From Actinomycetes bacterium (GTDB lineage Bacteria; Actinomycetota; Acidimicrobiia; Acidimicrobiales; Palsa-688), in contig JAJZMF010000048.1 in assembly GCA_021850325.1 (NCBI GenBank), positions 62,001-126,000 on the forward strand: DNA of 64,000 nt, in the 5' to 3' direction. Shown here one piece after another: positions 35,123-41,024 of this stretch. Position 1 is the stretch's first letter. Each line of letters begins with the position of its first letter. The translations under genes and the position numbers were made by a program. Below the pieces are notes generated by a model. The model worked only from the letters and a program-made list of their open reading frames with translations, was not told the DNA's origin and made no database searches.

Positions 35123-36154
35123 TTGAGCACTACGACGGGCACGGCTGGCCTCGGCGGGGCACAGCCGGGGCACTTCCGCACCACCGGTGGCGGAGGGGCC
35201 GAGATGGCACGCTTCGTGCAGCTCTTCGACGCCCTGGTGGGCAACGTCAGCACCGTCCTGCGCGGGAAGGAGAGCGTGGTCCGCGCCGCGCTCACCTGCG
35301 TGCTGGCCGAGGGCCACCTACTCATCGAGGACGTCCCGGGCGTGGGCAAGACGTCCCTTGCCCGCGCCATATGCAAGTCGGTCAACCTGACCTGGAACCG
35401 CGTCCAGTTCACCCCCGACCTCCTGCCCAGCGACATCACCGGCGTTACGGTCTTCGACCAGGCCACCTCCGGTTTCAGCTTCAGGCCCGGGCCGGTGTTC
35501 GCCAACATCGTCCTCGGTGACGAGATCAACCGGGCATCGCCCAAGACGCAATCGGCCCTGCTCGAGGTCATGCAGGAACAGACCGTTTCGACCGATGCCG
35601 CCGTCTACCCGGTCCCCCGGCCCTTCGTGGTCATAGCAACTCAGAACCCGGTGGACCTGGAGGGCACCTACGTGCTCCCCGAGGCCCAGCTCGACCGGTT
35701 CCTGATGCGCCTGTCGGTGGGCTACCCCTCACCCGAGGCGGAGGTCGAGGTCCTGCGCGCCGAGCGCGACGCACCCAGTGTCGAGCACCTGGTCCCGGTC
35801 ATGGACCGTGAGGACCTGCTGAGCATGATCGAGCTGGTGAAGCGCTCGGTCGAGGTGTCGTTGCCCATCGAGCACTACATAGTCGCCGTGTGCGCCCGCA
35901 CCCGGGAGATGCCCGAGGTGCGCCTCGGCGTCTCTCCCCGGGGGGGGCTCGCCCTCCTGCGGGCGGCGCGGGTCAGCGCGGCCGCCGCTGGCAGGCCCTT
36001 CGTCACCCCGGACGACGTGCAGGCCATGGCCCTGCCCACTCTTGCCCACCGCATAGTGCTGCGACCCGACGCCGAGGTGCAGGGCAGGACAGCGGCCGAG
36101 GTGGTCACCAGGGCCGTCCAGGCCGTGCCCGTGCCCCGGGCCGTCCTGCGCTGA
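35123..36154 (+). CDS. MoxR-family AAA+ ATPase
   Basis: 343 residues. TTG at 35123 with GAGGGAG eight bases upstream. Walker A GVGKTS at 73-78, Walker B in VLGDEINRASPKTQSALLE, sensor ATQNPVDLEGTYVLPEAQLDRFLM, all intact. MoxR ATPases act as chaperones that mature or activate partner envelope complexes, commonly with DUF58 and transglutaminase proteins encoded next to them, as here. Confidence 0.93.
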   Translation: MSTTTGTAGLGGAQPGHFRTTGGGGAEMARFVQLFDALVGNVSTVLRGKESVVRAALTCVLAEGHLLIEDVPGVGKTSLARAICKSVNLTWNRVQFTPDLLPSDITGVTVFDQATSGFSFRPGPVFANIVLGDEINRASPKTQSALLEVMQEQTVSTDAAVYPVPRPFVVIATQNPVDLEGTYVLPEAQLDRFLMRLSVGYPSPEAEVEVLRAERDAPSVEHLVPVMDREDLLSMIELVKRSVEVSLPIEHYIVAVCARTREMPEVRLGVSPRGGLALLRAARVSAAAAGRPFVTPDDVQAMALPTLAHRIVLRPDAEVQGRTAAEVVTRAVQAVPVPRAVLR

Positions 36155-36157
36155 ACG

Positions 36158-37294
36158 ATGACCAGGACCGGTTGGGCCGCTGTCGCAACGGGCGCCGCGC
36201 TGGGCGTGGTGGGCACGGCCGCCCACTGGGCTGCCTTCGTGGTCCTCGGTGCCGGCCTCGTGGCCCTGGTGGCCGGAGCGCTGGGGTACGTCGCCCTGTC
36301 GCCGCGCCTGGCCCTCCAGCGCGCCGTGGAACCGGCCCGGGTCGAGAAGGGGCAGCCGGCCATCGCAGTGATCCGGGCCACGAACCTCTCCTGGAGGGCC
36401 CTGTCGGGCTTGGTGATCGAACAGCGCCTGGGGGCGACGGTCTTCAGGGCCGAGCTGCCCCGGCTGGGCCGGGGCGAGGGCGGGCTGAGGACCTACCGCC
36501 TCCCCACCGCCCAACGCGGTACCTACAGCGTCGGCCCGGTCGAGGTGCCGAGGGCTGACCCCTTCGGCCTGTGCCGACGGGTGAGGCGCCTGGGCCAACC
36601 CCAGGTGATCTCGGTCCACCCGCGTTCGCTCCCCCTGCGCCCCCTGCCGAGCGGGAAGTCCCGCAACCTCGAGGGCCCCTCGAGCGACATGTCGCCGCAG
36701 GGGACCGTCACCTTCCACCGCCTGCGGGAGTACGCCGTGGGCGACGACCTGCGCACGGTGCACTGGCCCTCTACCGCCCGGGCCGGCCGTCTGGTGGTCC
36801 GCCACTACGTGGACACGGCGCAGCCCTACACGGTGGTACTGGTGGACGTGCGCCCCGAGGTGTACTCACCCGAGACCTTCGAGGAGGCCATGGACGTGGC
36901 GGCATCGGCCATAACGGCCATGTCAGCAGGCCGCTCCCCTGTCCAGTTGAGGACCACCGCCGGCGGGCGCGCCGGTGGGCCGGCCATGAAGGACGCGGCG
37001 ACGCTGGTCGACCTCCTCACCGACATGGCCCCGGACCCGACGGGCTCGCTCGTCGACCAGTTGACGCGACTGCGTCACGACCGAGGGGGCAGCGCCCTGG
37101 TGGTGGTGACCGGTGCCCTCGAGGTCGACAGCCTGCAGGCCGTCGCCCCCCTCGCCAAACGCTTCGACCACGTGATCGTCGCCTCGCTCGTCCCGCACGC
37201 CGTCCCGGCGCCCTCCTACCCGGGGGTGCAGGTCCTGGTCGCCACGGGTGCCGAGGACCTGGCTCAGGCCTGGGACAACTGGGTGGTCCGTTGA
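36158..37294 (+). CDS. DUF58 membrane protein
   Basis: 378 residues. Two close N-terminal membrane spans (about 8-24 and 26-48) precede a beta-rich region and the DUF58 core GTVTFHRLREYAVGDDLRTVHWPSTARAG-type segment (near 190-215). The rest resembles a von Willebrand A-like fold (YTVVLVDVRPEVY). Partner of MoxR; 3 bp after its stop. Its stop overlaps the next start (TTGA). Confidence 0.93.
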   Translation: MTRTGWAAVATGAALGVVGTAAHWAAFVVLGAGLVALVAGALGYVALSPRLALQRAVEPARVEKGQPAIAVIRATNLSWRALSGLVIEQRLGATVFRAELPRLGRGEGGLRTYRLPTAQRGTYSVGPVEVPRADPFGLCRRVRRLGQPQVISVHPRSLPLRPLPSGKSRNLEGPSSDMSPQGTVTFHRLREYAVGDDLRTVHWPSTARAGRLVVRHYVDTAQPYTVVLVDVRPEVYSPETFEEAMDVAASAITAMSAGRSPVQLRTTAGGRAGGPAMKDAATLVDLLTDMAPDPTGSLVDQLTRLRHDRGGSALVVVTGALEVDSLQAVAPLAKRFDHVIVASLVPHAVPAPSYPGVQVLVATGAEDLAQAWDNWVVR

Positions 37295-39609
37295 GGGCCG
37301 CTCCCCCGCTCCGGCCCAGCCTGGTGGCTGCGCTGGCCCTGGGGGGCATGGCTGCCTGCTACCTGGCCTCCATGCCCTGGTTGCGCGCCTACCAGGTCCC
37401 CTCGGTCCCCATCCTGCTCGCCATTGCCGCCTGTGCCCCCTTCCTGCTCACCTCGGTCCTCTCGCGCGCCCTGCGCTTCGACGCCCTGGTGGCGCTCGGT
37501 GCCTCGGTCGCCGTCCTGGCCCTGGTGCTGGTGGCCGCCAGCCACGCCGACGTGAACCTGCTCTGGCAGGGCCTTACCCGGGTGCCCGCCCAGCTGTTGA
37601 CCGAGACGCTGCCGCTGGGCGGGCCGGCTTGGTTGGCAACCGCACCCGTTGCGGTGACCTGGTTGTGCTCCACCGTGTGCGCCGAGCTCCTGCTCCGGCC
37701 CTCCGCTCCGTGGCCGGCGGCGCTCGGCCTGCCTCTGGTCTCGTTCTCGCTCGCCTACCTGGCCACCACCACAGCGCCCCCGGGGCATGGCCCGGCCGAG
37801 GCCGCCGGGCTGCTCATCACCCTGGTGGCGGTGGCGCTCACCACCCATGGCCTGCGGGCACTGGACATGGAGGGCCCCGAAGCCCATGCCCCCCGCACCC
37901 GCCCCACGGACATCGGCGAGGGCACGCACCACGGCCCGGCCAGGCGTGCCGCTGCAGCAGGCTCGCTCGCCGCCGTGCTCGTGGCGGGCCTGGGCGTGGG
38001 CGTGCCGTCGGTGGCTGCGTTCTCCAGCCGGCCTGCCACCATCACACGGCCCACCCGGCTGTTGGGAGGCATGGTGGTGGACCCGGTCGACGTCATCGCC
38101 TCCCTTCGCTCGTCCCACCTGCCGGGCCGGGGGCCGGTGCTGTACACCGTGCATGTGGACCGTCCCTGGTGGGGGTACATGGCAGCAGCCGTCCTCGACC
38201 ACTACGACGGCGAACTGTGGTCCTTCGGCTCGACCTTCCGCCCCACAGGTGGCCGCGTCCCGCTCCTCGGCCCCGCAGCAGGTACGGGCAGGCCGCTGCA
38301 ACAGGAGTACCAGCTCGTCCGGTCGATCGGCGTGCCCTTCCTGCCTGCTGTCGAGCGGCCCCTCTGGGTCAGCGGCACGACCGTCGACGCCGACGCCGTG
38401 ACCGGGATGCTGGCGAGCGAGGCCACAGGCCCGGTTGACTACACGGTCGATTCGGCGCCCGGTGACATCAGCGCCGAGGCCCTGCCCGCCGGGACGCCGC
38501 TGCTGGCTGCGGACAAGTTGCCCGACGGCGCGGCCCTGACCCAGATCCCCGAAGGCTCCCAGCGCATCGCCTCCGCCGCAGTGCGCTTCGCTGTGGACCT
38601 GACAGGTCGGCCCGCGGCACCGTCCTTCGCGTTCCTGCAGGACCTGGCGGCGACCCTCGCCACCAGGGAGCGAAGGGTTGTCGCCCGCCGGGCGGCCGGC
38701 AGCCAGGCGGCGGCGGCCGGGTTGGCCGGGACGTCGCTCGCCCAGGTGATGAACGCTGTCACGGTGGTCAAGGCCGCCACCCCGGAACAGTTCGCCACCT
38801 ACTTCGCCGTCGTCGCTCGCTACCTCGGCACCCCGGTGCGCCTGGTGAGCGGGTTCCGGCTGCCCCTACCGCCGGGACCGCCCGGTCCGCTCCCCCCGGG
38901 CACCTACACGGCCCGGGCCGGGGACGCCTGGACCTGGGACGAGGTACCGGTGGCAGGCCGTGGGTGGGTCACCGTCGACGCTGCCCCCAGCCTGACCACT
39001 ACCGATGCCTCACCCCCGCCCGAGCAGGTGACACCGGCCAAGCCCCACAAACCCGCGCCTCCCGCCGCACTGCCCCGCTCGGCTCAGCACGCCCTGGCCC
39101 GGCCGGCTCGTGTCCCCCGGCACAGCGCGGGCACAGCCGACTGGGGCGTGCTGGTCGGAGCGGGCCTGCCCGCCGCCCTGGTCCTGGCCCTGCTGATGGT
39201 CGTCGTGGGCGCCCCGGCCACGCGCAGGAGGCTGCGCCGGCTCGCCCGTCACCGTGCCGACGACCCCGCCCTGCTCACGGCAGGCGCCTGGTTGGAGCTC
39301 GTGGACGGCATGGCCCGTCTCGGCTTGGAGGTCCGGCCGGCTGCCACCAGCCAGGAGCTGGCCCGAAGTGCCCGCCAGCAGTTCGGCGAGGACATCGGCC
39401 CCCTGGTCGGCGCCGTAGCCGAGCTGGCGGACCGAGCCGTGTACAGCAGCCGTTGGGCACCCGATGCCCAGACCGCGGACTATGCCTGGCAGGCGCAGGC
39501 GCAGGCGTACCGCGCCCTGCTCCACCAGGCCGGCTGGCGCCGGCGCGCCCGCGCCCTGGCCCAGGTCGGCCCGGCTCCCGCCAAGCCGCTGGCGAAGGCA
39601 GGCGGGTGA
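37291..39609 (+). CDS. TgpA-like membrane transglutaminase-fold protein, catalytic residues lost
   Basis: 772 residues from TTG at 37291, overlapping the DUF58 stop. Five or six N-terminal membrane spans (to about residue 240), an extracytoplasmic domain, a further span near 615-640, and a cytoplasmic DUF4129-like tail (LVDGMARLGLEVRPAATSQELARSA). The transglutaminase core is recognisable at 494-565, but the residue that should be the catalytic Cys is P498 (ATPEQFATYFAVVARYLG) and the His position is W547 (GDAWTWDEV). Only the Asp (D563 in GWVTVDAAP) remains. So it is a predicted pseudoenzyme with an intact scaffold. Coupled to the kinase-like gene by a GTGA overlap. Confidence 0.85.
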   Translation: MRAAPPLRPSLVAALALGGMAACYLASMPWLRAYQVPSVPILLAIAACAPFLLTSVLSRALRFDALVALGASVAVLALVLVAASHADVNLLWQGLTRVPAQLLTETLPLGGPAWLATAPVAVTWLCSTVCAELLLRPSAPWPAALGLPLVSFSLAYLATTTAPPGHGPAEAAGLLITLVAVALTTHGLRALDMEGPEAHAPRTRPTDIGEGTHHGPARRAAAAGSLAAVLVAGLGVGVPSVAAFSSRPATITRPTRLLGGMVVDPVDVIASLRSSHLPGRGPVLYTVHVDRPWWGYMAAAVLDHYDGELWSFGSTFRPTGGRVPLLGPAAGTGRPLQQEYQLVRSIGVPFLPAVERPLWVSGTTVDADAVTGMLASEATGPVDYTVDSAPGDISAEALPAGTPLLAADKLPDGAALTQIPEGSQRIASAAVRFAVDLTGRPAAPSFAFLQDLAATLATRERRVVARRAAGSQAAAAGLAGTSLAQVMNAVTVVKAATPEQFATYFAVVARYLGTPVRLVSGFRLPLPPGPPGPLPPGTYTARAGDAWTWDEVPVAGRGWVTVDAAPSLTTTDASPPPEQVTPAKPHKPAPPAALPRSAQHALARPARVPRHSAGTADWGVLVGAGLPAALVLALLMVVVGAPATRRRLRRLARHRADDPALLTAGAWLELVDGMARLGLEVRPAATSQELARSARQQFGEDIGPLVGAVAELADRAVYSSRWAPDAQTADYAWQAQAQAYRALLHQAGWRRRARALAQVGPAPAKPLAKAGG

Positions 39610-41024
39610 CCCGCCGGAGCGGGCCGGGCCAGAGGGCCGCGGCACCCCCCGCCCCCTCCGAGAGCTTCGGCGGCTATGGCGGCGTCGTCGAGGTGGCCAG
39701 GGGCGATCTCGCCACCGTGTACCGGGCTGTCGAGCTCGGCACGGGACGCCACGTCGCCCTCAAAGTGGTGCGCGCGCTGGCCGTACCCGTGCGCACGCTC
39801 GAGGCGTTCGAAGAGGAGCTCCCAGCCCTCGTGCAGCTGGGCAAGCACCCCAACGTGGTCGCCCTCCACCGCGTCTTCTCCACGCCCGAGGGCTGGCCCG
39901 TCCTGGTCCTGGAGCTTTGCCCCGGGGCCCTCGCCGGTCGCCTCGAAAAGGAGGGGCCCCTGCCCGCCCCCGAGGTCGTGCAGGTCGGCGTCAAGCTGGC
40001 CGGGGCCCTGGAGAGCGCCCACCGGGCCGGGCTCTGCCACCAGGACCTCGAGCCCGGGAAGATCCTGGTGTCCGAGTACGGCGAGCCCGCACTGGCGGGC
40101 TTCGGCCTGGCGCGGCTGCGGGCAGCGGCCCGCCCGGGTGACGGGCTGCTCGGGTTCAGCCCGCTTCACCTGCCGCCCGAGGTGCTGGAGGGGCAGCCGG
40201 GCTCCCCCCGCGCCGACGTCTACGGCTTGGCCTCGTGCCTCTACGAGCTCCTCGTCGGCCACGGGCCCTTCACCGCCTACGAGGGTGAGCCGCCCGCCTC
40301 GGTGGTCCTGCGCATCCTGCGTGACCCACCGCCCAGGCTCCCGCCCGTCGGCGTCCCCGTAGGCCTCTGCGACCTCCTCGAGGCCTGCCTGGCCAAGGAG
40401 CCCGCCCGACGCCCTGCCGGCGCGGCGGAGCTCGCCGAGCAGCTGCGGGCGGTGGAGCTGGAGGCGGGGTGGTCACCGACCCCGTACGTGGTGCACGGTG
40501 AGCGCCAGGCCGGTCCCTCGGGCCCGGCCACGGGGCCCGTACGCCCGGGCAGCCCCCACGACCGTCCACGGCGTGCACCGGTCAGGTCCGTCGTCCCACC
40601 CCGGTTGCCGTCCCCGGGCGACGGGGCCGCGCCGCCGTGGCCCACAAGTGGACCGGGCACCGCCACAGCCTCCCCGCCCGTGCCTGCCCCGGTCCGGGCG
40701 CTGGGTGGCACCCTCACCCCTCCCGCCACCCCTGCACCTCCGGCCGGCCCGGACGGGCCGGGTGCGCCGACCGGGGCACCGCCGCCAGCGCAAGCGCACG
40801 CCGACGCCACACGCTGGGGCTTCCCATCCGCCTCGCCCCTGGCGGGCAGTCCGCCCGAGGCGGCCTCCATGCCGAGCAGCCCTCCCACCCGGTCGGGCTC
40901 CCGCCCTGGCGTGCGCCGGCCGGCGCACGGCCGCCAAGCAAGGCGGTTGCCGCTGGCCGTGGCGGCAGGTGCCGGCGCCGCGGTAGGCGCCACAGTGGCC
41001 CTGCTCGCCGCCCACGTGCTCTGA
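39606..41024 (+). CDS. Membrane-anchored protein kinase-like protein, predicted pseudokinase
   Basis: 472 residues, GTG at 39606 overlapping the previous stop. The kinase fold spans about 20-290: K53 in HVALKVV is kept. The catalytic loop reads CHQDLEPGKILV, so D147 is kept but the usual Lys is E149 and the metal-binding Asn is K152. DFG is GFG (G165), so the second metal ligand is lost, and the glycine-rich loop is degraded (VARGDLATVYRA). The APE-like PPEVLEGQ and DVYGLASCLYELL helices are intact. A Pro/Gly/Ala-rich linker follows, then a membrane span at about 447-470 and almost no outside tail. Likely a scaffold or nucleotide sensor, not an active kinase. Confidence 0.85.
   Translation: MTRRSGPGQRAAAPPAPSESFGGYGGVVEVARGDLATVYRAVELGTGRHVALKVVRALAVPVRTLEAFEEELPALVQLGKHPNVVALHRVFSTPEGWPVLVLELCPGALAGRLEKEGPLPAPEVVQVGVKLAGALESAHRAGLCHQDLEPGKILVSEYGEPALAGFGLARLRAAARPGDGLLGFSPLHLPPEVLEGQPGSPRADVYGLASCLYELLVGHGPFTAYEGEPPASVVLRILRDPPPRLPPVGVPVGLCDLLEACLAKEPARRPAGAAELAEQLRAVELEAGWSPTPYVVHGERQAGPSGPATGPVRPGSPHDRPRRAPVRSVVPPRLPSPGDGAAPPWPTSGPGTATASPPVPAPVRALGGTLTPPATPAPPAGPDGPGAPTGAPPPAQAHADATRWGFPSASPLAGSPPEAASMPSSPPTRSGSRPGVRRPAHGRQARRLPLAVAAGAGAAVGATVALLAAHVL

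Follow-up and report, generated by a model that had tools for sequence, protein, structure and literature searches.

In the genome of an Actinomycetes bacterium (Acidimicrobiales; Palsa-688), an envelope operon ends in two genes whose products are predicted to be catalytically inactive, a TgpA-like protein with a transglutaminase fold and a Hanks-type kinase-like protein. To judge from the alignments, the transglutaminase site had already been lost when the orthologues began to diverge, whereas the kinase has lost its catalytic residues recently and only in some lineages, that of the present genome among them. The operon lies in a stretch of 64,000 nucleotides (contig JAJZMF010000048.1, positions 62,001 to 126,000; hereafter the window), taken from an assembly of 3.18 Mb that is 95% complete (GCA_021850325.1).

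The operon encodes, in this order, an FN3-type surface protein, a MoxR ATPase, a DUF58 protein, the TgpA-like protein (TGM) and the kinase-like protein, and is followed by trpS (Table 1). Consecutive genes share 4 bp at the DUF58/TGM boundary (TTGA at 37291) and at the TGM/kinase boundary (GTGA at 39606), the latter being the overlap described in the first-pass annotation, and scanning the operon for promoters and terminators gave no signal above chance. The five-gene order is kept across the orthologous operons of the family, which was sampled with one genome per species, mostly MAGs. Both predicted pseudoenzymes appear to be anchored in the membrane and belong to one compact operon, in which their pairing is conserved.

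Table 1. Features of the operon and of its two predicted pseudoenzymes (positions in the window).
Feature	Position	Strand	Basis
FN3-type surface protein, ~1298 aa	31210..35106	+	start picked by eye
MoxR AAA+ ATPase	35204..36154	+	PF07726 7.9e-60, PF17863 8.2e-23
DUF58 protein, single hydrophobic segment	36158..37294	+	PF01882 1.8e-10; TM scan
Predicted pseudo-transglutaminase (TgpA-like), 772 aa	37291..39609	+	PF01841, AF2 model/Foldseek, TM scan
P498, catalytic Cys position	38782..38784	+	alignment with orthologues
W547, catalytic His position	38929..38931	+	alignment with orthologues
D563, Asp kept	38977..38979	+	alignment with orthologues
Kinase-like protein	39606..41024	+	PF00069 5.2e-29; AF2 model, Foldseek to PknB; TM scan
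Catalytic loop, HQDLEPGK versus HRDMKPQN in genus relatives; of its Asp, Lys and Asn only the Asp remains	40038..40063	+	alignment
AGFG replacing ADFG; metal-binding Asp lost	40095..40109	+	alignment

MoxR proteins serve particular complexes as chaperones, and the one encoded here is ~92% identical within the genus. The surface protein is 41-61% identical to its homologues (n=11 orthologues) and is built of an N-terminal membrane anchor, a large extracytoplasmic region, a Thr/Pro-rich stalk and a C-terminal transmembrane segment, the scan placing hydrophobic segments close to both termini. The window protein has no Pfam match of its own in a Pfam search, and PF00041 was found in the aligned region of five of the six orthologous surface proteins tested. 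Its C-terminus (LVPTTGG, a hydrophobic stretch and RRARRR) resembles a sortase signal, but does not follow the LPXTG consensus.

The TgpA-like protein would consist of N-terminal membrane helices, an extracytoplasmic transglutaminase fold (residues ~265-617), a transmembrane segment (620-638) and a cytoplasmic helical tail. PF01841 matches residues 490-564 at 3.9e-8, above the cut-off, and the AlphaFold model (mean pLDDT 68, ~80-90 in the core region) finds its best PDB matches by Foldseek in 6g4h and 6g49, the periplasmic domain of TgpA (E 2.5e-8 for 6g4h). In this model P498 starts a helix, and W547 and D563 lie on or beside strands, fitting a transglutaminase fold. The fold is therefore present and the Cys-His-Asp triad is not: intact relatives read GYCEQFA...AHAW...FEPTP, versus ATPEQFA...DAWTW...VDAAP in the window protein, and the earlier assignment of Pro, Trp and a surviving Asp to the three catalytic positions proved exact. 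The P-W-D combination is invariant in 21/21 sequences (the window, 16 same-family orthologues with readable cores, the MAG loci L091, L096 and L098, plus L129, whose genome belongs to another class), and the P498 and W547 columns are invariant in the full TgpA-like alignments. This invariance points to an ancient and fixed pseudo-transglutaminase, whose domain is predicted to be dead as a transglutaminase.

Taking into account that both the fold and its Asp are conserved, and that the strict fixation of P498 and W547 implies a pocket under constraint, it could be argued that the protein is still an enzyme, with a different nucleophile or with its triad displaced. This is highly improbable: its only cysteines (23, 48, 126 and 130) are all in the N-terminal membrane region, leaving the ectodomain without an alternative nucleophile; an ectodomain Cys is absent from the window protein and from every orthologue but G021, which has one; and the Cys and His columns hold no conserved substitute. 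The check for a triad elsewhere in the protein, which would have counted against the first-pass reading, found none, and a displaced triad or another Cys is thus rejected. The source genome contains no second PF01841 protein.

The closest solved structure belongs to a characterised enzyme, TgpA of Pseudomonas aeruginosa, which has a conserved triad and for which transglutaminase activity has been shown (PMC3507681). TgpA, from the PA2875-2873 cluster, and the window protein are both polytopic with an extracytoplasmic transglutaminase fold; however, TgpA has Cys-His-Asp, whereas the window protein has Pro-Trp-Asp and its gene shares an operon with those of FN3 and kinase proteins. No report of inactive bacterial transglutaminases in MoxR-DUF58-type operons was found in the open-access literature.

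The kinase-like protein comprises a Hanks kinase domain (residues ~22-290), a Pro-rich linker and a C-terminal transmembrane segment (450-468), and its AF2 model is nearest to M. tuberculosis PknB, so that the kinase fold is retained. As the first-pass annotation had read it, the equivalents of the loop Lys, the loop Asn and the DFG Asp are lost; aligned with the genus relatives, the substitutions are K to E149, N to K152 and D to G165. The β3 Lys53, the αC Glu and the HRD Asp147, a point absent from that annotation, are kept. From the residue set of active kinases (β3 Lys, HRD Asp, loop Asn and DFG Asp) the Asn and the DFG Asp are gone, and the domain is predicted to be dead as a canonical kinase. 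Among 90 positions invariant in the 12 intact orthologues, the window protein has changed at 5 of 14 in catalytic motifs versus 8 of 76 elsewhere (Fisher p = 0.03). The gene remains in frame with a GC3 of 0.88, its product keeps the C-lobe core and C-terminal transmembrane segment, and the C-lobe invariants H188, P191, D204 and R269 persist in all kinase orthologues, the degenerate ones included. A sequencing error or frameshift is unlikely, because there are several separate same-frame substitutions in an alignment that is otherwise conserved.

Kinases lacking the DFG Asp are active in rare cases, and since K53, the αC Glu and D147 are still present, the protein might retain phosphotransfer by an unusual, CASK-like mechanism, with the β3 Lys and HRD Asp but without a second metal site, or it might have gained another activity of the SelO or SidJ kind; such alternative pseudokinase activities have been reviewed (PMC12599244). 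We regard this as improbable, given that the loop Lys, loop Asn and DFG Asp were replaced together at positions where the intact orthologues are invariant, and that the other degenerate orthologues lose different residues.

Of the 17 family operons (window included), 12 encode a kinase with intact Lys, HRD Asp, Asn and DFG, namely those of the two other genus members (G001 and G002) and of ten others; among the intact kinases, G010 is without the αC Glu and G028 without the APE Glu. The degenerate kinases are that of the window and those of G008 (VAMR, HRDVRPSK, GGFG), G016 (HQNVKPQN, DPG), and G014 and G023 (no G-loop seen, HLAL, GFA), to which L098, an orthologous locus beyond the 17, adds another (VALR/HLDLCPAH). 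In the MoxR+DUF58+TGM tree, G008 and G016 are sisters (99), as are G014 and G023 (100); the intact G001 and G002 together form the sister group of the window (100). If the ancestor was intact, this placement requires at least three separate kinase losses. A joint origin of both pseudoenzymes is ruled out by the orthologues, in which the TGM is dead throughout and the kinase mostly intact.

On a fixed tree, the terminal-branch ratio of kinase domain to TGM has a median of 1.46 in degenerate versus 0.365 in intact lineages (Mann-Whitney p = 0.0013, a value that ignores relatedness, the lineages not being independent); measured against the TGM, the degenerate kinase domains evolve at 3-4 times the rate of the intact ones. 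Pairwise dN/dS (NG86) of the kinase is 0.51 for G008-G016, versus 0.06-0.17 in the intact pairs listed. It is 0.26, at dS 0.83, for G014-G023, both degenerate, whose TGM gives 0.24. For window-G001 it is 0.28, a rough value due to dS near 1, which also covers the time preceding the catalytic loss. Taken together, the pairwise values indicate that constraint on the degenerate kinases has weakened but has not gone.

These rates bear on a live alternative to a structural or sensory role, namely the relaxed decay of the kinase, with only the pseudo-transglutaminase having a non-catalytic function. Its course would be that the operon lost the PP2C and FHA partners of the PFNA layout and could then do without phosphorylation, leaving the kinase gene to drift in several lineages. 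The acceleration in every degenerate lineage fits this course, as do the absence of PP2C and FHA from the window operon, where the PFNA-like loci L132 and L145 have PP2C, and the orthologous operon L091, in which the kinase is absent within the 8 kb seen. Against it, the window kinase retains its frame, GC3, C-lobe invariants and C-terminal transmembrane segment, and the G014 and G023 pseudokinases, degenerate since before their split, are still held at the low dN/dS given above. On balance simple decay seems unlikely, though it deserves serious weight.

For the state of the transglutaminase site, a further 80 MoxR-DUF58-TGM loci of actinobacteria were surveyed, selected for their similarity to the window protein; the phylum-wide search covered 200 genomes. 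The Cys is intact in 62 of these loci and missing in 18. An FN3 protein is encoded upstream in 9/18 Cys-less versus 0/62 intact loci (Fisher p = 2e-7), and a kinase within 8.5 kb in 7/18 versus 0/62 (p = 1e-5), both p values being inflated by related genomes. As FN3 and kinase genes occur beside Cys-less TGMs alone, the transglutaminase fold of FN3/kinase-type MoxR operons seems to be non-catalytic. The premise that MoxR/DUF58/TgpA systems normally have an active core is thus valid for plain operons (the 62 loci), but where FN3 or kinase genes are present the Cys is missing as a rule. Two loci, L132 and L145, are very PFNA-like, with a surface protein carrying Big_9/FN3 domains, MoxR, DUF58, a Cys-less TGM, PP2C and a kinase, which is intact in both. 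A second case of double loss, outside the window's taxonomic order, was found in a 7.1-Mb genome (L131:7164-11452, +), where a MoxR-DUF58-TGM set with the Cys lost (SEQFA) is followed by a degenerate kinase-like domain (VAVR/HLDVRPAS/LAGHA).

Further gene arrangements were seen in this survey. In one PFNA-like cluster, the Cys-less TGM gene is separated from the PP2C gene by one for an RDD-family membrane protein (L132:9742-11319, +). In L141, L149, L191, L194, L200 and L202, Cys-less TgpA-like proteins belong to MoxR-DUF58 operons in which neither FN3 nor kinase was detected, with an HSP70-like gene lying upstream of MoxR in L194.

The PFNA operon is a proposed host-communication system of bifidobacteria. 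In Bifidobacterium, the cluster reads pkb2-fn3-aaa-atp-duf58-tgm, sometimes with prpC and fha, and its Tgm has been named a putative transglutaminase; Pkb2 is active in B. longum and phosphorylates the operon's own MoxR (PMC8430577, PMC6803598). As five of the six orthologous surface proteins have FN3 domains, the window operon matches this cluster in gene content: both have the same five protein types, including a membrane-anchored kinase and a polytopic TgpA-like protein, and the fn3-MoxR-DUF58-tgm order, with the FN3 gene directly upstream of MoxR. The comparison is one of gene content and order. The Hanks-type kinase gene is 3' of tgm in the window, versus 5' of fn3 in PFNA, and the window operon differs further in having no PP2C or FHA and a dead transglutaminase site; the competent kinase of PFNA is lacking in the window but present in most orthologues. 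Among the sampled genomes no Bifidobacterium was found with an approximate phosphoketolase query, and the best-matching family, without a PFNA-like locus, was left unused.

The mycobacterial kinases PknB and PknA are alike in fold and sequence (top Foldseek matches, ~29% identity), but the window kinase is without the loop Lys, the loop Asn and the DFG Asp, and also without an extracellular sensor domain, the C-terminal transmembrane segment ending the protein. MviN of M. tuberculosis resembles it as an actinobacterial Hanks-fold pseudokinase with a membrane anchor and a plausible scaffold role (PMC12599244). However, the known bacterial pseudokinase families, MviN included, are uniformly dead (PMC12599244), whereas the family of the window kinase is mostly intact with patchy loss, and the window kinase, unlike them, keeps the β3 Lys and HRD Asp. 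Its motif pattern also differs from those of ActPs1-3, GLW, DLHK, CP1 and DYD, as judged from their descriptions (PMC12599244).

We favour, with moderate confidence, a PFNA-type envelope signalling operon in which the fixed pseudo-transglutaminase would serve as a binding module and the kinase fold as a scaffold or phosphorylation target. Its parts would be the FN3 surface protein, the MoxR AAA+ chaperone, a DUF58 adaptor, the polytopic TgpA-fold protein and the tail-anchored Hanks-type kinase domain. The TgpA-fold protein would perform neither protein cross-linking nor hydrolysis; its ectodomain may bind an extracytoplasmic partner, the simplest candidates being the FN3 surface protein and wall material, and relay this binding through the cytoplasmic helical tail to DUF58 and MoxR, so that the tail, DUF58 and the tail-anchored kinase would meet MoxR at the membrane. 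The operon kinase of most species would, like Pkb2 in B. longum, have another product of the operon, for example MoxR, as its substrate; that of the window species would no longer transfer phosphate, and its fold would remain as a scaffold or as the target of another kinase, for which MviN offers a precedent (PMC12599244). The original proposal, that both proteins have become structural or sensory partners in one membrane complex, is sustained in so far as both are predicted dead and membrane-anchored, in one operon whose first gene is of FN3 type and in which their pairing is conserved, but not as a joint event, the kinase being intact in most orthologues. A physical complex, with a structural or sensory role of both proteins, may nonetheless exist.

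At the level of sequence, the data suggest that MoxR operons of the window's type work via binding and scaffolding rather than protein cross-linking. More tentatively, and with the balance slightly against it, the same might apply to the FN3/kinase MoxR-DUF58 operons of Actinomycetota at large: their "transglutaminase" would generally be a pseudoenzyme receptor or docking platform, their kinase would be under recurrent pressure to become a pseudokinase, and the operon could run as a catalytically silent, MoxR-driven machine for surface display or sensing. If so, Tgm of PFNA-type operons would be wrongly annotated as an enzyme. In the widespread MoxR-DUF58-TgpA operons, the transglutaminase mostly carries such an enzymatic annotation; the division into two groups, plain operons with an intact triad versus FN3/kinase operons without the catalytic Cys, yields a simple prediction for the bifidobacterial PFNA operon. 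Moreover, intact and degenerate kinases at one locus form a natural series for studying the change from signalling kinase to pseudokinase.

The closest paralogue of the window kinase (~48-54%), present in both genus relatives, is the kinase of a 1892-aa fusion (L080:3020-8695, -, and partly L081), which joins an intact Ser/Thr kinase to FHA and FtsK/SpoIIIE motor domains and resembles EccC/EssC of type VII secretion.
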